A DNA stretch of 40,634 bases from Oceanospirillum multiglobuliferum (GTDB lineage Bacteria > Pseudomonadota > Gammaproteobacteria > Pseudomonadales > Halomonadaceae): NCBI RefSeq assembly GCF_900167095.1, contig NZ_FUXG01000027.1, positions 1 to 40,634 of the forward strand. Reading direction: 5' to 3'. Shown here piece after piece: positions 9,565 through 39,600 of the stretch. Every line of letters begins with the position of its first letter. Positions within the stretch are counted from its first letter, which is position 1. Position numbers and translations under genes: made by a program. Below the pieces are notes generated by a model. The model had not been told where the DNA came from. It ran no database searches and saw only the letters and a program-made list of their open reading frames with translations.

Positions 9565-10557
9565 TTATTGAGCCGCTCCAGCAATTTCATACACCAACCG
9601 AGCCGCCAGTTTAGCCGTACGGCTGTCTTGATCTAAAAGCGGGTTACACTCCGCAAGATCCACTAACACAATAGGCAGGTTCAGGGCTTGCGCTTCACTG
9701 ATCAGCAGTTTGATCAGGGCTAAACCGATCACAGGGTCTAAGCCCATCACTGAAGGTGCGCTGACACCCGGTGCGGCAGCGGCGTTGAACACATCCATGC
9801 AGATGGTCAGATAGAGATAATCCAACTGACGCAGATAGGTCTGCATTTCCGCTCTGATGTCGGAAAAATCAGACAGCTTGCACTGGTGATCTAAGCGCCA
9901 CAACACCCCTTGGCTTTTGGCAAAGTCGAAGAGTGCCTGTGTGTTGGCGCTGTCATTCACCCCTATGCAGTAGTAGTGAAACGGTTTGTGCTGATGGGCG
10001 CACCACTCGGCAATCTGGCGAAACGGTGTGCCGGAGCTGCCTTGGCGCTCTGGGTTACGTAAATCAAGATGCGCATCGAAATTCACAATACCCACTGCGG
10101 CCTTGGGATTTTGCGCGTATACATGCTGAGCGATGCCTTGAAAACTGGCCCATGCGATCTCATGCCCGCCACCCAAAACAATGGGCTGTAAACCTTGGCG
10201 CAAAAGCTGAGCCACTTGCAGACCTAAAGCCGCTTGTACAGGCTCAAGCTGTTCATCATCACAGTTTACATCACCCGCATCATACACCGCTTTGCTCAGG
10301 TGCCATGCCGCATTGGCCAAGGCTTTACGAATCGCTTCAGGCCCTTGTTTAGCGCCTTGGCGACCTTTATTGCGACGCACTCCCTCGTCACAGGCAAAAC
10401 CCAAAAGCGCAACATCTCCGGTTTGAACCTCTGAATAATCCGTAGGCAAGGCTTGCACTTGTTGATGCCAGCGCCAACTGATGCCCTCTTCCTCATCGTC
10501 GATACGCCCCTGCCAAAGCGCCATATTGGCGGGGGTGTGATGATTCTTAGCCGACAT
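9565..10557 (-). CDS. hutG: Formimidoylglutamase
   Basis: A 330-aa arginase-superfamily enzyme that hydrolyses N-formimidoyl-L-glutamate to glutamate and formamide, the last step of histidine breakdown. Mn-ligand motifs are seen as GGGHE, NFDAHLD and CMDVFNAAAAPGVSAP. In the last motif the first Asp of the usual DxD is Cys, which may be normal in this branch. The start is fixed by CAGGAG at 10564-10569, eight bases before ATG 10557. That ribosome site lies inside the last codons of hutI, whose stop is only two bases upstream of this start, so hutI and hutG are translationally linked. An upstream in-frame start at 10617 has no such support. Confidence 0.93.
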   Translation of the reverse strand: MSAKNHHTPANMALWQGRIDDEEEGISWRWHQQVQALPTDYSEVQTGDVALLGFACDEGVRRNKGRQGAKQGPEAIRKALANAAWHLSKAVYDAGDVNCDDEQLEPVQAALGLQVAQLLRQGLQPIVLGGGHEIAWASFQGIAQHVYAQNPKAAVGIVNFDAHLDLRNPERQGSSGTPFRQIAEWCAHQHKPFHYYCIGVNDSANTQALFDFAKSQGVLWRLDHQCKLSDFSDIRAEMQTYLRQLDYLYLTICMDVFNAAAAPGVSAPSVMGLDPVIGLALIKLLISEAQALNLPIVLVDLAECNPLLDQDSRTAKLAARLVYEIAGAAQ

Positions 10558-10559
10558 GG

Positions 10560-11861
10560 TTAAGCTCCTGTGGTGTTGGAAACAGAGGGATTCAACCGAG
10601 GCTGGCCGTTGACCCAAATCTGTTGAGGTTGATGCATATTGATCGCGTAACTCAGCTCGCTGGGGTGGTCAATTGACCACAGCACCAAGTCGGCCTGATA
10701 GCCCACTTGCAGTTGCCCTTTGCGATCTTGTAAACCCAAAGCTTGCGCCGCATGGCAGGTGACGCCTGCTAAGGCTTGCTCAGGGGTTAAGCCAAATAAG
10801 AGACAGCTTTGGTTCATCGCCAACAGTAACGAGGCAATAGGTGAGGTGCCGGGGTTCAGATCGGTGGAAACCGCAACCGGAATTTGATGCTCAAACAGCG
10901 CTTGTACAGGGGGCAGTTTGGTTTCTTTTAAACAGTAAAACGCCCCCGGTAATAACACTGCAACCGTGTTGGCGGCTTTTAATGCAGGTAGATCCTCTTC
11001 GGCGAGATACTCCAGATGATCCACCGATAGCGCATTAAACTCAGCGGCCAAACGGGAACCCTTAAGGTCGCTTAACTGCTCCATATGGCCTTTCACGGGC
11101 AAACCATACTGCTGCGCGGCTTTAAATAAACGCTCGGTTTGGGCATGGCTAAAGCCGATCCCCTCGCAAAACACATCCACTGCGTCGGCCAAATTATGCT
11201 CCGCCACTTGGGGCAGCATCTCGTTAATCACAAGGTCAAGATAATCATCAGCACGGTCTTTATACTCCGGCGGCACGGCATGGGCGGCCAAAAAAGTGCG
11301 CTTAATCTCGATGCCTGTGTGTTCGGCCAGTTGCCCTGCCACCTTTAACATGCGCTGCTCAGTCGGCCAGTCCAAACCGTAACCAGACTTGATTTCAACG
11401 GTGGTAACTCCTTCGGCCATTAAACGTTGCAAACGCTTTAACCCGCTTGCAAACAGTTCCTGCTCAGATGCGGCACGGGTGGCTCTCACCGTGCTCACAA
11501 TGCCACCGCCCTGCTGGGAAATCTCTTGGTAGCTGTAGCCTTGCAAGCGCATTTCAAACTCACGGGCGCGGCTGCCGCCATAAATCAAATGGGTATGGCA
11601 GTCGATTAAAGCGGGAGTCAGCCAGCCCTGTTGCCCATCAATCTGTTCAATCGCGTCAAACTCCGGAGCTTCTGCTGCCGCCCCGACCCAGCTGATTCGC
11701 CCCGCCGTGACAGCCAATACACCATCTTCTAACTGACCATAGGGCGATGCCGAGTCTGACGTTTCGTAGTCCATTGTCGCTAAAGATACGTTGTGTATTA
11801 AAAGGTCACAGCGATGAGCATCAGCCTTGTTCTGATTTATCACGGTATCCGTTATTGTCAT
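10560..11861 (-). CDS. hutI: Imidazolonepropionase
   Basis: A 433-aa amidohydrolase that opens the ring of 4-imidazolone-5-propionate to give formimidoylglutamate, the third step of histidine degradation. Metal and substrate motifs are in order: HTHLIYGGSRAREFE, the EIKSGYG stretch, HAVPPEYKDR, KGHMEQLSD, SVDHLEYL and STDLNPGTSP. Length is slightly above the usual 400-415 aa because of a polar N-terminal extension. It is followed directly by hutG. A 151-bp gap with a hairpin and a tandem repeat separates it from hutU, so hutI-hutG may have a promoter of their own. Confidence 0.95.
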   Translation of the reverse strand: MTITDTVINQNKADAHRCDLLIHNVSLATMDYETSDSASPYGQLEDGVLAVTAGRISWVGAAAEAPEFDAIEQIDGQQGWLTPALIDCHTHLIYGGSRAREFEMRLQGYSYQEISQQGGGIVSTVRATRAASEQELFASGLKRLQRLMAEGVTTVEIKSGYGLDWPTEQRMLKVAGQLAEHTGIEIKRTFLAAHAVPPEYKDRADDYLDLVINEMLPQVAEHNLADAVDVFCEGIGFSHAQTERLFKAAQQYGLPVKGHMEQLSDLKGSRLAAEFNALSVDHLEYLAEEDLPALKAANTVAVLLPGAFYCLKETKLPPVQALFEHQIPVAVSTDLNPGTSPIASLLLAMNQSCLLFGLTPEQALAGVTCHAAQALGLQDRKGQLQVGYQADLVLWSIDHPSELSYAINMHQPQQIWVNGQPRLNPSVSNTTGA

Positions 11862-16931: not shown

Positions 16932-17100
16932 TGAACCAAGCGAACGACTTAGGCGTGGAACAAGCCAGAAAATAGTTCGCAGATAAGCCACAGGTTGACA
17001 GGGAAAACATCGTGTTAAAAAGCAAATTCCCTAGAGTGCCAGCGGCCGTTCAACAAACGGTTATAGCCATGGCTTCGCCATCTGTATAACCGTTTAATAA
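16865..17100 (+). repeat. Dispersed repeat, copy A (inverted partner at 26820-27045)
   Basis: From about 16919 the sequence TAGTGAACCAAG, then GGCGTGGAA, CCAGAA, TCGCAGATA, GCCACA and CAGGGAAAACAT matches the reverse complement of 26984-26890 at roughly 85% by eye over about 95 bp. After a diverged gap, TTATAGCCATGG and CCATCTGTATAAC match again. The repeat thus includes a gene tail, a spacer and an attC-like hairpin, and it ends just before an open reading frame in both copies. Confidence 0.8.
17048..17098 (+). other. attC-like recombination site (candidate)
   Basis: A 51-bp imperfect palindrome. It begins GTTCAAC, which fits the integron R' consensus RYYYAAC, and ends GTTTAAT, six of seven to the R'' consensus GTTRRRY. 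Between them AAACGGTTATA pairs with TATAACCGTTT and an inner ATGGC pairs with GCCAT around a TTC loop. The unpaired bases inside the stem are what folded attC strands show. It lies 32 bp before the FRG gene, where a cassette boundary would be expected. A terminator or an unrelated repeat hairpin is the alternative. Confidence 0.45.
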
Positions 17101-17130
17101 TTAAGTAACTCTAAGGCTAATTATTAAATT

Positions 17131-17859
17131 ATGGAAACAGAGAAGGCTCTCAAAGAATTTTATGAGTCTATCGCGAAAAAGCGAAAGCGACTGGGCATAT
17201 CAAATGATCCTGCTTGGTTTCGTGGTCATAGTCATGGCTACTATGAATTAGTGCCATCTCTTTTCAGAATCAAAGATGTGCGTCTGGTAGACGAGAAGAA
17301 CATATTTAATACGTTTATTACAGAAGGTAGAGCACATGTTGGTATGCCAACCGATCCTTGGGGAATACTCGCGATTATGCAGCACTACAAAGTGCCAACC
17401 CGTTTATTGGATTGGACTGACTCGTTGCACGTAGCTCTCTTCTTTGCTTTAAAATATACAAGCTACGAAAAGCCGCATCTGTGGATTCTAAATCCATATA
17501 GGTTGAATGCAAAAATAAGTGATACTGACCGTATTATATACGGTGATATGGACGAGCTTAAATTTAACTATTACGAACAAGTTAAGTCTGAATCATGGGA
17601 GAGAAAAACTCCAGTAGCCATCGCTCCGAGTTGGAATAGTACAAGGCTGACTGCTCAACGAGGCTATTTTACCGTTCATGGGGGAGATTATAGTCCTGTA
17701 AATAAGGTCGTTACAAATTGTGCCCTGAAAGTTGAAATCCCTGAAGTAATCATCCCTCGACTATTAGATGAGTTAGAGCACTCTGGTACTGATGAGGCTA
17801 GAATGTTTCCTGATTTGGAAGGGCTGGCGCTAAGTATTCGAAGAAGATTTAGGTTGTAG
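17131..17859 (+). CDS. FRG domain-containing protein
   Basis: A 242-aa protein with an FRG domain, named for a conserved F/Y-R-G triplet, seen here as WFRGHSHGYYELVPSLFR at residues 29-46. Further family-like blocks are GILAIMQHYKVPTRLLDWT at about 81-99, with the following ALFFALKY, and LTAQRGYFTVHGG at about 170-182. The family is common near defence and mobile genes but has no proven activity. The ribosome site is weak (AAGG about 14 nt upstream). The stop codon is only eight bases before a tRNA gene on the same strand, so the two are probably on one transcript. It lies between two attC-like structures, as a gene cassette would. Confidence 0.85.
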   Translation: METEKALKEFYESIAKKRKRLGISNDPAWFRGHSHGYYELVPSLFRIKDVRLVDEKNIFNTFITEGRAHVGMPTDPWGILAIMQHYKVPTRLLDWTDSLHVALFFALKYTSYEKPHLWILNPYRLNAKISDTDRIIYGDMDELKFNYYEQVKSESWERKTPVAIAPSWNSTRLTAQRGYFTVHGGDYSPVNKVVTNCALKVEIPEVIIPRLLDELEHSGTDEARMFPDLEGLALSIRRRFRL

Positions 17860-17867
17860 TATTTTAT

Positions 17868-17951
17868 ACGAGAGTGGTGAAACTGGTAGACACGCACGAC
17901 TATAGATCGTGTGCCGAAAGGCGTGGCGGTTCGAGTCCGCCCTCTCGTACC
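17868..17951 (+). tRNA. Class II, Leu-like tRNA with anticodon ATA
   Basis: A complete cloverleaf can be folded. The acceptor stem is ACGAGAG/CTCTCGT (17868-17874, 17942-17948) and the D-arm GTG...CAC contains TGGTAGACAC as in tRNA-Leu. The anticodon stem is CACGA/TCGTG (17895-17899, 17907-17911), the long variable arm GCC-GAAA-GGC, and the T-arm GGCGG-TTCGAGT-CCGCC. The 7-nt loop CTATAGA puts ATA at 34-36 (17902-17904), which would read UAU (Tyr). Discriminator is A73 (17949), followed by CCG, so CCA is not fully encoded. Body features and A73 are those of tRNA-Leu, whose synthetase in bacteria largely ignores the anticodon. An A at position 34 is very rare in bacteria outside tRNA-Arg. Confidence 0.85.
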
Positions 17952-17956
17952 GAATC

Positions 17957-18004
17957 ACTTAACAAAGTGTTGCACCGGACAAGCCGGTGAACACGGCGTT
18001 CAGG
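17957..18004 (+). other. attC-like recombination site (candidate)
   Basis: Starts ACTTAAC, which fits RYYYAAC, and ends near GTTCAGG, a degenerate form of GTTRRRY. Between them GTG/CAC and GCACCGG/CCGGTG can pair around ACAAG. The layout (AAC, then TGCACCGG, then CCGGTG, then GGCGTT) closely resembles short chromosomal integron attC sites. It begins 5 bp after the tRNA. The core mismatch at the right end lowers confidence. Confidence 0.5.
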
Positions 18005-18165
18005 CTGTAGAAAAACCTAACGGGTTCTAGTTATTGAGAATTTATCGCGCTGCCACGTTGATTTAAGCACATTCTTTGATGAGAACTGCTCCAGAATTCG
18101 CGTAGGAGCGCCATTTTTAGTACAAAAAATGATCAATTTTTGAGACTGAGGCTTTTCTACAGCCT
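18002..18165. repeat. 13-bp inverted repeat bounding an ORF-less segment
   Basis: AGGCTGTAGAAAA (18002-18014) is repeated as its exact reverse complement TTTTCTACAGCCT (18153-18165). The 138 bp between them have no open frame. In integrons, the bases just after a crossover point are often complementary to those before the next attC, so this could be a short gene-less cassette. Confidence 0.6.
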
Positions 18166-18166
18166 C

Positions 18167-19036
18167 GTTATGTTTAAAGGAGAGTTATGAGTTTACAGAT
18201 GGATATTTCATTTGCCTGTGAATGTGGTGAGCATGTAGAAGATATAGTCTATGTCCAAGACCCTGATTTTTCCGCTGAAAAGAATAAGGATAGCCAAACC
18301 GACTCTTGGCAGGAGGTGTTTTGCCCTTCTTGCGATAAGGAATATACAGTTCAAGTTACTAACACTTTTTATAGTGCTATGGCATCAATTGATTATGGGA
18401 ATGTGGACGTAAACCACGGGATGCCTTATTACCCAGAAGATGAAGCTGATGAGCTTTACTGGTATATCGATAGCAAAACTCATTATGAAATTCTGCAAAG
18501 CCACTTAAAGAGTGTCCGAACACTACTAGAAGTAGAAGTTCCTCCTGACACCCTATTTAATCTATGGGTCATGCTACATGGTCACGTTGTATCAGCAATT
18601 GAAGGTTACTTGGCAGGCATATTTATTCATAAGGTTACAAACTCTGAGGAGTTAATACGAAAACTAGTTGAAACAGACCCTGAATTCTCAAAAAGAACGT
18701 TCACTCTTAAAGAGATTTTTGAAAAGCAATCAAACTTAAAGGTTACGGTTGCCACTTACCTTAAAGATCTAATATTTCACGATCTAAAGAAGGTTAAGCC
18801 AATGTTTAAAGATGTTCTAGGTCATGATTTTGGTGACATTTCGTGGTTATTTAAAGATGTCGTGAAACGCCATGACTGTGTTCACCGGGCAGGATACAAC
18901 AAGGACGGCGAAGCGATTGAGGTTTCAAAAGATTCTGTTTTGGTACTCTTAGAAAAAGTTGAAGCTCTGGCTGATTCAGTTGAGGCAACGGTAGGTAAGT
19001 TAGATGAGCCTAATGACCTGCCATTTTAAACATAAC
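18167..19036. repeat. 12-bp inverted repeat flanking the HEPN-like gene (cassette ends)
   Basis: GTTATGTTTAAA at 18167-18178 and its exact reverse complement TTTAAACATAAC at 19025-19036 bracket the gene at 18187-19029. GTTATGT at one end and ACATAAC at the other is the arrangement expected for the two ends of one integron cassette. The rest of the right-hand attC has been replaced by transposase-related sequence. Confidence 0.7.
18187..19029 (+). CDS. Zinc-ribbon plus HEPN-like protein, unknown function
   Basis: A 280-aa protein. The N-terminus has two Cys pairs, CECGEH at 11-16 and CPSCDKEY at about 46-53, forming a probable zinc ribbon. The C-terminal half is helical and contains KRHDCVHRAGYNKDG at about residues 235-249. 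Its R-x4-H pattern (RHDCVH) followed by RxGxxKDG is like the catalytic loop of HEPN ribonucleases. A HEPN RNase role is inferred from this motif only. The start is firm: AAGGAG lies just upstream of ATG 18187. The gene fills the space between two halves of a 12-bp inverted repeat, so it is probably a former integron cassette. It is AT-richer than the hut genes. Confidence 0.7.
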   Translation: MSLQMDISFACECGEHVEDIVYVQDPDFSAEKNKDSQTDSWQEVFCPSCDKEYTVQVTNTFYSAMASIDYGNVDVNHGMPYYPEDEADELYWYIDSKTHYEILQSHLKSVRTLLEVEVPPDTLFNLWVMLHGHVVSAIEGYLAGIFIHKVTNSEELIRKLVETDPEFSKRTFTLKEIFEKQSNLKVTVATYLKDLIFHDLKKVKPMFKDVLGHDFGDISWLFKDVVKRHDCVHRAGYNKDGEAIEVSKDSVLVLLEKVEALADSVEATVGKLDEPNDLPF

Positions 19037-19288: not shown

Positions 19289-19606
19289 ATGTCCCTCATT
19301 GCCAGTACACCAAAGCCACCTTACTACGCAGTGATTTTCACATCTCATCGTACTGAAGGTGATAGCGGCTACAGCGAAATGGCAGCTCGAATGGTTGAGC
19401 TAGCGTCAATGCAACCGGGTTTCTTGGGCGTAGAGTCCGCACGAGAGGACGTTGGAATTACAGTTTCCTATTAGTCTGATCTTGAGTCCATCAAGCAGTG
19501 GAAGGCGAATGCCGAGCATCAAGAAGCCCAAAGACTGGGGCATGAGCAGTGGTATTCATCATTCAAAACTCGTATATCGAAGGTAGAGCATGATTATGGT
19601 ATCTAA
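19289..19606 (+). pseudogene. Antibiotic biosynthesis monooxygenase (ABM) domain gene with an in-frame TAG
   Basis: The 105-codon frame encodes a small ABM-fold protein (MSLIASTPKPPYYAVIFTS, then GYSEMAARMVELASMQPGF) but codon 62 (19472-19474) is TAG. Reading continues in the same frame as SDLESIKQWKANAEHQEAQ and ends HDYGI. Family members have ITVSYW at the stop position, so a TGG-to-TAG change is the simplest reading. The rest of the frame is intact, so the break is recent or the stop is read through. AAGGAG lies upstream of the ATG. It sits between two transposase fragments. Confidence 0.8.
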
Positions 19607-36631: not shown

Positions 36632-39600
36632 ATGACGACCATCAACAATGCACCTGTACTGGATACCACCAAATCTCCGGCTTTGACCGATGTCATCCAA
36701 AACGCATCAGCCCCACAGGCTAACTCAACCGCGGGTTCCACACTGGTCAGTGATCTGATTGGTACAGCGAATAATAACGGCATCGGTAACTACAGTGATA
36801 TCGAAGACGATAGCCCCGGTATTGCCATTACCGGCGTCAGCGACAAAGGAAAGCTGTATTACACGACCAACGGCGGCGAAACTTGGTCAGCACTCACCGG
36901 CAGAGTATCCGCAACCTCTGCACTGGTGTTACAGGCGAATGCCGATACCCGAGTTTACTTCCTGCCTAATCAACAAACCGATGCAGGTACGATCAACGAT
37001 GCCCTAACCTTTAAAGCTTGGGATGGTACGGGTGGCTATACCAATGGAAAAACACGCATAACAACAGGCACTGTTTGGAGTATTGATGGCAGTCTTGACA
37101 CCTCTGGAGCTGCTTATGGTGTCAGTGTGATCGGCAACTATGCCTATGTAGCCGATGGTGTTTTGGGCTTACAGGTTATTGATATCAGCGTGCCCAATCA
37201 TCCAACCTTAGTCGGTAATTCTGACACTAATGGAGGTTATGGTGTCAGTGTGGTCGGCAACTATGCTTATGTAGCCAGTGGTTATTTAGGTGTACAGATT
37301 ATCGATATCAGTGATCCCGCCCAGCCAACTTTAACCAGCATGGTTGATACTTCAGGATCTGCTAAGGGTGTCAGTGTGGTCGGCAACTATGCTTATGTAG
37401 CCGATGGTTCGTATGGTTTACAGATTATCGATATTAGTGATCCCGCTAATCCAACCTTAACCGGAACGGTTGATACTTCCGGTACAGCTGTTGGTGTGAG
37501 TGTGGTCGGCAACTATGCTTATGTAGCCGATCGTTCGTATGGTTTACAGATTATCGATATCAGTGATCCCGCTAATCCAACCTTAACCGGAACGGTTGAT
37601 ACTTCTAAACCTGCTCTTGGTGTCAGTGTAGTCGGCAACTATGCTTATGTGGCCAATGCTGAAGCAGGTTTACAGATTATCGATATCAGTGATCCCGCTA
37701 ATCCAACCTTAGTCGGTAATTATGAAACTTATGGATATGCTCATGATGTCAGTGTAGTCGGCAACTATGCTTATGTGGCCACTGGTAGTCCAGGTGTAAA
37801 GATTATCGATATCAGTGATCCCACCAAGCCAACCTTAGCCGGTACTGTTGACACCACTGGAGAGGCTCACGGCGTGAGCGTGGTCGGTGACACTATCTAT
37901 ATCGCTGATAGTGATGCAGGCTTGCAGGTGATTAAAGCCACTGTACCAAACGCTTTCTCCACCGCCAGCGATACGGTTAGTTTGGTGGTGAATGAGTTGA
38001 ATACAGCCCCTACTTTAACCGCCACGGGCACCAACCCCACCTTTACTGAGCTTCTGGATTTAGAGCAGGACACACTGCAAAACACCCCATTGACCTATCT
38101 GTTTACGGAAAGCGATTTCGATACGATTGATGCCAATCAAGAAATCACCCAAGTCACAATTACCGTTACGAATGTAGTCGATTATATCGATGGTAATCCG
38201 GAAGAATTATTGTTTATTGGCTCCAGTGCTATTGAGCCTAGTTTTATACCTATTTTCTTAGAAGACGGCTTTAACAGTCAGAATGTTAATTGGGAAGACA
38301 CTCCCGATTTACCCTACTCTGTAACGATTGATGAGAATAATATCGCTACGGTTGTTATTGACTTTAGCGATAGTGCCGAACACTGGGAACAGTATTTAAA
38401 TAAATTGGCTTATATCAATACAAGCCAAGACCCAACTGCTGGTGATCGGGTCGTGACCATCACCAGTTTAAAAGATGACGGTGGTACAGATAACAACGGC
38501 CAAGACACCACCACGGGTTTAAGTGTGTCCTCCACGGTAACGGTAGTATCTGTTAACGACGCCCCCGTACTGGATGCCACTCAATCTCCGGCTTTGGCCG
38601 ACGTTATTCAAAAGGCAGGCGCACCTGAGGCTAACTCAATCGCTGGTTCCACAGTGGTCAGTGATCTGATTGGTACAGCGAATAATAACGGCATTGGCAA
38701 CTACAGTGATGTCGAAGGCGATAGCCCCGGTATTGCTATTACCGGCGTCAGCGACAAAGGTACGCTGTATTACACCACCGACGGCGGCGCGAACTGGACA
38801 GCACTCACCGGCACAGTATCCGCAACCTCTGCACTGGTGTTACAGGCGAATGCCGATACCCGTGTTTACTTCCAGCCTAATCAACAGACCGATGCAGGCA
38901 CGATCAACGATGCCCTCACCTTTAAAGCTTGGGATGGTACGGGTGAATTTAGCAACGGCCAGACAGAAGTGGTGACTGATATTGTCATCATAGAGAGCTA
39001 CGGAGTTGCTACTCAGGGAGTGGCTAGAAGTGTAAGTGTGGTCGGCAACTACGCCTATGTGGCCGATGGTGGTTCGGGCTTACAGGTTATTGATATCAGT
39101 GTGCCCAATCATCCAACCTTAGTCGGTAATTATGACACTACTGGATATGCTTATGATGTCAGTGTGGTCGGCAACTATGCTTATATAGCCGATGGTGGGG
39201 GGGGTGGTTTGCATATTATCGATATCAGTAATCCCGCCCAGCCAACTTTAACCAGAATGTTTGATACTTCTGGATTTGCTCTTGGTGTCAGTGTGGTCGG
39301 TAACTATGCTTATGTGGCCGATGATAGTGATGGCTTACGGATTATTGATATCAGTGACCCCAATAACCTAGCCTTGACCGGAACGTTTGATACTTCCGGT
39401 GCAGCTGCTGGTGTGAGTGTGGTCGGTAACTATGCTTATGTGGCCGATGCTACCTCAGGTTTACAGATTATCGATATCAGTAATCCCAACAATCCAACCT
39501 TAGCCGGTACTATTGACACAACTGGAAATGCTCGTGGCGTCAGTGTGGTCGGTGACTATGCTTATGTGGCCGATCAAGGTTCGGGTTTACAGATTGTCGA

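Follow-up and report, generated by a model that had tools for sequence, protein, structure and literature searches.

What is a tRNA gene with the body of a leucine tRNA and the anticodon AUA doing eight base pairs downstream of a putative phage-defence gene? The pair lies in Oceanospirillum multiglobuliferum, on contig NZ_FUXG01000027.1, the whole of which (40,634 nucleotides) was analysed and is called the window below. A sequence-only reading had singled it out, proposing that the FRG-domain gene and the tRNA may form one unit and that the tRNA, if charged with leucine, would misread the tyrosine codon UAU. The positions, the shared strand and the spacing of 8 bp from the FRG stop codon to the tRNA were confirmed, and the pair is flanked by further elements that bear on its origin. 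The features are as follows, with the strand in brackets.

17048–17098 (+): upstream attC-like site, GTTCAAC ... GTTTAAT, with a short hairpin, called by the strict scan described below, from shape and position only.
17131–17859 (+): FRG-domain gene, 242 aa, coding for a predicted effector of the ADP-ribosyltransferase (ART) fold, defence candidate PDC-S15 (Pfam, PADLOC).
17868–17951 (+): class II tRNA gene with a Leu-type body and anticodon AUA (ARAGORN, Rfam, isotype profiles and pair comparison).
17957–18004 (+): downstream attC-like site, ACTTAAC ... GTTCAGG, 5 bp past the tRNA gene (strict scan and homology).
18001–18166 (strand not assigned): MITE-like insert, 166 bp, with 17-bp terminal inverted repeats of the AGGCTGTAGAAAAACCT type (inverted repeat 94%).
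18167–19036 (+): next putative cassette, with the start GTTATGT at 18167 and an R''-like ACATAAC at 19030–19036, the two boxes complementary at 7/7 positions.
18187–19029 (+): 280-aa open reading frame in the next cassette, some tblastn relatives of which are named HEPN domain-containing protein.
Contig C20 of the same genome, about 112,880–114,750 (9880–11750 of locus L331): chromosomal integron relic, with an intI piece containing a stop codon and cassette-like open reading frames.

The FRG open reading frame matches Pfam PF08867 (E = 1.9e-21) and, over nearly its full length, the PADLOC model PDC-S15 (E = 6.9e-43). It shares with other proteins of these families the conserved RG, QH, TRLLDW, R, Q and F positions, and carries every residue that is invariant in two alignments in which it is included, one of 13 and one of 30 sequences, but differs from them in that identity is at most about 36% over most of the length, with short pieces reaching 55%, and in having a tRNA gene attached. 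The AlphaFold model of the protein (pLDDT 88.9) gives 62 Foldseek matches, none with E <= 0.001, and the best 18, which we take to be entries for ART enzymes, include one for RhsP2. A passage of PMC9503650 assigns FRG to the ART superfamily and suggests that it might act as an NADase, and one in PMC11833690 describes RNA-modifying enzymes of the ART fold, among them RhsP2. The FRG gene codes for a candidate anti-phage effector, with a predicted ART fold and predicted use of NAD+. The GC content of the gene is 41% and that of the HEPN-like open reading frame downstream is 39%, against 47–48% in the flanking genes.

The tRNA is the only one in the window. ARAGORN calls it as Tyr with anticodon ATA (the loop is CTATAGA), and with the Rfam tRNA model, whose gathering score is 29, it reaches 51.7 bits. 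With the anticodon masked, isotype profiles built from 69 Leu, 22 Ser and 6 Tyr tRNA genes give 63.1 bits for Leu, 5.5 for Ser and 8.2 for Tyr, the Tyr profile being a weak one on which held-out Tyr genes score 1.5–22.8; the Leu-type body with an AUA anticodon that had been read from the letters therefore stands. In the ARAGORN cloverleaf the 7-, 3-, 5- and 5-pair stems are all standard, with one additional G-U beside the anticodon stem. Relative to the nearest of the 69 Leu tRNAs, four base pairs of the acceptor, anticodon and T stems have both members replaced in a compensatory way, and such pairs are more numerous relative to the remaining ones, which argues for a non-random fold; that all the helices are intact with such changes points to recent or continuing selection on the RNA and speaks against pure decay. 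Of the signs that the sequence-only reading had named as pointing to a chance neighbour, one is present, in that relatives show no link to FRG, and another, pseudogene decay of the tRNA body, is not seen.

The gene resembles bacterial tRNA-Leu in its class II body, its 63-bit score, A73 and, as judged from the homologous Leu genes of the host, A15-U48, the D-loop GG and A20a. It differs in U35 in place of A35, the anticodon AUA, an A1-U72 pair and an encoded 3' end that reads ACC-G rather than ACCA. According to a passage of PMC9976931, the identity of E. coli tRNA-Leu for LeuRS is set by A73, A15-U48, G18G19 and A20a and not by the anticodon, with A35 common to the Leu isoacceptors, while Tyr identity is set by A73 and U35, with G1-C72 in bacteria. 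Charging by LeuRS, as had been considered, is plausible on these grounds, the Leu determinants being present by homology and the anticodon not being needed. The sequence-only reading missed that the two critical Tyr determinants, A73 and U35, are also there, although G1-C72 and a Tyr-type body are not; with both sets in one RNA, the amino acid could be Leu, Tyr or both. Misreading of UAU as Leu is accordingly one possible outcome and not the sole one, and a dual Leu/Tyr identity is, as far as the determinants go, just as open. Reading of UAU by this tRNA would be silent if it were charged with Tyr and missense if it were charged with Leu.

Use of the tRNA in translation, with charging by LeuRS, TyrRS or both and reading of UAU, could take the form of a harmless extra Tyr(AUA) on a Leu body or of Tyr-to-Leu misreading, which might be confined to conditions of cassette expression. 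The determinants for both synthetases listed in that passage of PMC9976931 and the intact, compensated helices are what such a tRNA should have, but the A1-U72 pair in place of the bacterial Tyr G1-C72, the encoded CCG and a score of only 8 bits as Tyr are not, the host genome carries a normal Tyr(gta) gene, and no second example turned up in the genome or viral pattern scans, so that we hold this use to be unlikely. The sequence-only reading had called A34 very rare in bacterial tRNAs other than tRNA-Arg; among the other loci, ARAGORN calls of the A34 type comprise one Leu(aag) and two Ser(act). No promoter-like site is present on the plus strand between 16650 and 18200, where two are found on the minus strand (3.0 are expected by chance on both strands). 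Changed decoding ends on a kept body would be consistent either with a passenger whose decoding is under relaxed constraint or with an RNA that is retained for its shape.

Relatives of this RNA were sought in two ways. A pattern combining the Leu body with the AUA loop matches 20 places in one-per-species genomes and five in viral contigs, none of the 25 being a tRNA; divergent bodies would escape it, because the pattern requires TGGTAGAC. A scan for a tRNA directly before an attC site, covering 369 genomes of the class, 322 of the order and the viral contigs, found none but that of the window. ARAGORN and inspection by eye were applied here to 110 of 150 loci, namely 30 from the class, where further places were read from the listing, and the first 80 of at least 120 viral ones, together with 17 loci from the order, several of which are tRNAs followed by terminator-like hairpins. 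The plasmid and phage relatives of the window tRNA are ordinary tRNA-Leu genes where annotated, the phage ones being 75–81% alike among the matches listed (30 of 40 records); six of these plasmid and phage loci were pooled into the tRNA comparison set. The window tRNA is like mobile phage tRNA genes and tRNA-site islands in being a tRNA gene on or beside mobile DNA, and unlike them in having no duplicated 3' end, in lying inside a putative cassette and in its altered anticodon. We considered whether it is the scar of an integration site and rejected this, because its 3' end is not duplicated anywhere in the window.

The boundaries of the putative cassette, which the sequence-only reading did not recognize, are the two attC-like sites. 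The strict scan requires YAACAA, outer boxes complementary at 5/7 positions or more and a compact hairpin, on either strand and in sites of at most 110 nt. In the 40.6-kb window it marks exactly two sites, which bracket the FRG and tRNA genes, and in both of them R'/R'' complementarity is 5/7 as they stand. One hundred dinucleotide shuffles of the window yield a mean of 0.18 matches, with two or more in 2 of the 100, and other DNA yields 3 matches in 261,568 bases, or about 0.5 per window. The scan also marks sites in the intI stretches of genomes G375, G418, G420 and G421 (in both stretches). It marks nothing in the intI stretches of G371, G372, G417 and G419 or at the intI relic of the organism's own genome, and so misses some site types. 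A looser finder, with 16 matches in 12 kb of the window, was dropped as unspecific.

The downstream element, 48 bp in length, has, judged by the attC box consensus, the form of an integron attC site, and it has relatives elsewhere. Sequences 85–93% identical over 33–41 bp are found in genomes G309, G162 (twice), G249 and G288, and plasmids of Pseudoalteromonas, Synechocystis, Salinivibrio and Thiothrix carry matches of 84–89% over 42–53 bp. One of the G162 copies, GGCTAAC ... GTTAGCC, has fully complementary outer boxes; the G309 copy precedes open reading frames that are presumably a HigBA-type pair, and the Salinivibrio and Thiothrix plasmid copies overlap or follow the end of an abortive-infection gene and a HEPN gene. 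In its own genome the element is single-copy by pattern scan. We regard it firmly as an attC-like site, such as would close an integron gene cassette, an assignment made from sequence. The upstream element, with a 19-nt inverted repeat (17055–17073/17077–17095, 84%), is by place and form the likely opposite boundary, and the proposed cassette start is at G|TT near 17092. The FRG and tRNA genes would then form one unit in the sense that both lie inside one putative gene cassette.

FRG relatives are widespread, occurring in 24 of 369 genomes of the class, 14 of 78 relatives and 34 of 381 genomes of the order (each figure includes the organism itself); plasmid records with a relative number 119. 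When sites of up to 130 nt are allowed, 19 of the 68 FRG loci from genomes contain an attC-like site; among controls the figures are 3 of 58 loci drawn from the class and none of 11 LysR loci. Some of the 19 look like chance (L036, L042, L054 and L449), and the 68 loci are partly non-independent, sharing a contig or gene, while matches in the searches outnumber loci. The FRG frame can be located in 55 of the 68 loci and is not locatable in 13, and in four of the 55 the attC-like site starts between –5 and +12 bp from the FRG stop. Loci such as L035, L313, L453 and L458 look like integron-type cassettes with the site directly after the gene. Among viral FRG loci (the best 80 of 158) four have an attC-like match, which is about the chance level; in one viral-contig locus, L394, the site lies 16 bp past the FRG match. 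FRG is thus repeatedly found as the cargo of cassettes, and what sets the window apart is the tRNA: in the four other FRG cassettes attC lies near the stop codon, whereas here the distance is 97 bp and is filled by the tRNA.

The position of the tRNA exactly between the FRG stop and attC, its perfect fold and the difference between a 97-bp gap and one of –5 to +12 bp in the four other cassettes would suit a 3'-end or processing element, with cleavage by RNase P setting the end of the mRNA and shielding the attC hairpin from effects of translation. The same four cassettes do without a tRNA, though, and the anticodon is left unexplained, and we consider such a role very unlikely.

Other FRG genes offer no comparable tRNA. 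With flanks of about 1.5 kb, tRNAs are found in 6 of the 68 genome loci, at gaps of 177, 189, 222, 418, 477 and 1062 bp, and these are Asn, Asn, Phe (two genes at one locus), Gly, Arg and Pro tRNAs with ordinary anticodons; ARAGORN finds none in the viral loci (0/80, the best 80 of 158 relatives, with flanks of up to 3 kb) or in four plasmid loci (0/4). At the closest of the six (989–1218 in L311, from genome G420), the two tRNA-Phe genes precede the FRG relative by 177 bp, an arrangement that resembles an ordinary tRNA-site island. With tRNAs in 6/68, 0/80 and 0/4 loci, a conserved FRG-tRNA pairing was rejected as unsupported: across the 148 other FRG loci the nearest tRNA is at least 177 bp away, so that on this point the idea of a recurring protein-plus-tRNA unit is not supported. 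The pairing may still be young, given that the relatives found share at most about 36% identity over most of the protein.

The two genes might also act as one device, in which FRG would be an ADP-ribosyltransferase directed at RNA and the tRNA its substrate or inhibitor, a decoy or a guard. The genes share a putative cassette and a strand, 8 bp apart, and the tRNA has kept its structure despite the changes at its anticodon and CCA end; PMC9503650 counts FRG as a member of the ART superfamily, and RNA-modifying enzymes of this fold are described in PMC11833690, with RhsP2 among the weak fold matches to the model. Against these stand the single instance, with no tRNA closer than 177 bp at any of the 148 other FRG loci, and the lack of any fold match with E <= 0.001, which together make a device of this kind quite unlikely.

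Genomic islands frequently insert at tRNA genes, and the pair could on that account be a chance neighbourhood, in which an FRG island had inserted beside a resident tRNA gene, as the 6 of 68 other genome loci with FRG within about 1 kb of ordinary tRNAs might be read. The window does not look like this, in that the tRNA 3' end has no second copy, the attC-like site begins 5 bp past the tRNA, the AUA anticodon is unlike that of an ordinary resident gene, and the tRNA tract is missing from the stretch of about 10 kb beside the LysR gene in all three congeners examined. A chance neighbourhood is accordingly highly improbable. These congeners (G369, G371 and G373) keep the LysR gene at 88–92% DNA identity, and the whole of 16.7–19.9 kb of the window is absent from the same 10-kb stretch in 3/3; the locus of the FRG-tRNA cassette is variable, as judged by this comparison. 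A small frame at 19289–19606 in the same variable tract, which we take to be monooxygenase-like, is broken by an in-frame stop. Elsewhere in the window, the open reading frames at 36759–37007 and 38670–38975, about 1.9 kb apart, have very similar translations and probably mark a repeat region.

An integrase that could have moved such a cassette is encoded in the group. Matches to intI (TIGR02249) above the cut-off are found in 8 of 24 genomes searched (the organism's own and relatives), two of them in the same genus. In the organism itself the search gives no more than an N-terminal fragment of 42 residues that contains a stop codon and lies on a contig other than that of the window, along with two weak C-terminal matches to other integrases. 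Near the relic, attC-like sequences can be made out by eye, and a DUF772 transposase piece sits immediately behind the GTT of one of them. Nine intI stretches, and the one with the relic of the organism's own genome, yielded no tRNA. A CALIN would need two or more attC sites with no integrase nearby; the window contig (the window is the whole contig) has no Phage_integrase match and has two attC-like sites, the upstream one called by shape only.

The MITE-like insert has GTT on both sides and separates the outer core of the attC-like site from the next cassette. The R'' box of the FRG attC agrees with the GTTATGT at the start of that cassette in 6/7 positions and with the GTTCAGG now present in 5/7. 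Eight matches to the insert ends were found outside the window's own copies, six of which, at five other loci, lie directly after GCGTT, with one more at the far end of the insert in L314 and an unrelated one in L180; these loci are a biased sample, many having been fetched for attC or FRG. The plasmid search gave no match to the insert. Insert-like ends after an attC-like GTT were seen in L314, L331, L335, L426 and L285, one of them with a DUF772 transposase piece. The pattern suggests that inserts of this type are attC-seeking insertion elements.

In the next putative cassette, 18187–19029 matches phrog_29321, and the relatives annotated as HEPN are 25–30% identical to it, closer ones at 41–43% being unnamed; none of the relatives are in viral contigs. 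No attC of its own is recognizable within 18167–19036.

The reading that we prefer, to which we give roughly one chance in two, is that of a stranded integron-type cassette that carries a defence-candidate FRG gene and a captured, altered tRNA-Leu gene, the latter probably little used. The cassette would span about 0.9 kb (approximately 17092–17998), with the FRG gene first and the tRNA captured between its stop codon and attC. It would have reached the locus through an integron integrase that recombines attC sites folded into hairpins, and would now be stranded there beside the neighbouring HEPN-type cassette, since the genome has only an intI relic. FRG and tRNA would be transcribed together from an outside promoter, and RNase P would cut the tRNA free from the joint transcript. 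The tRNA gene itself would most likely descend from a tRNA-Leu gene and be carried along as a passenger with an intact body; given its altered anticodon and CCA end, and as no separate promoter is visible, its RNA is probably scarce or hardly used.

A more elaborate reading sees in the same DNA a mobile defence cassette of two parts, an FRG effector of the ART fold and an RNA that moves with it as its partner, the tRNA serving as guard, decoy or substrate; its body of dual Leu/Tyr identity may have been kept while the decoding ends changed. We think this improbable, a little more so than a device of the two genes as such. It would be, to our knowledge, the first tRNA packaged in an integron cassette.

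Under the stranded-cassette reading, the cassette is of a known kind and its odd tRNA is new as far as this search goes. Like integron gene cassettes it consists of an open reading frame and an attC-like site on one strand, the site being homologous to sites elsewhere, and the window differs from them in having a tRNA gene between the two. It also resembles integrons in that intI is present in congeners and as a relic in the genome itself, and in its defence-type cargo, a class of cassette cargo that is discussed in part of PMC12444791. A term search of PMC9892861 and PMC12444791 gave no mention of tRNA, and in PMC12690207, which names a published collection of about 115,700 cassettes, the sole mention of a tRNA gene is the title of a reference. 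In titles and the opening lines of abstracts we met with no integron cassette that contains a tRNA, though we do not claim its absence from print.

Integrons are libraries of protein-coding cassettes, increasingly of anti-phage ones. A cassette with a structurally intact tRNA would show that RNAs of translation can also be captured and moved by integrons. The RNA in the window, with determinants for two synthetases and an anticodon for a sense codon, would provide a test of whether cassettes spread changes in decoding, or RNA partners for FRG proteins.
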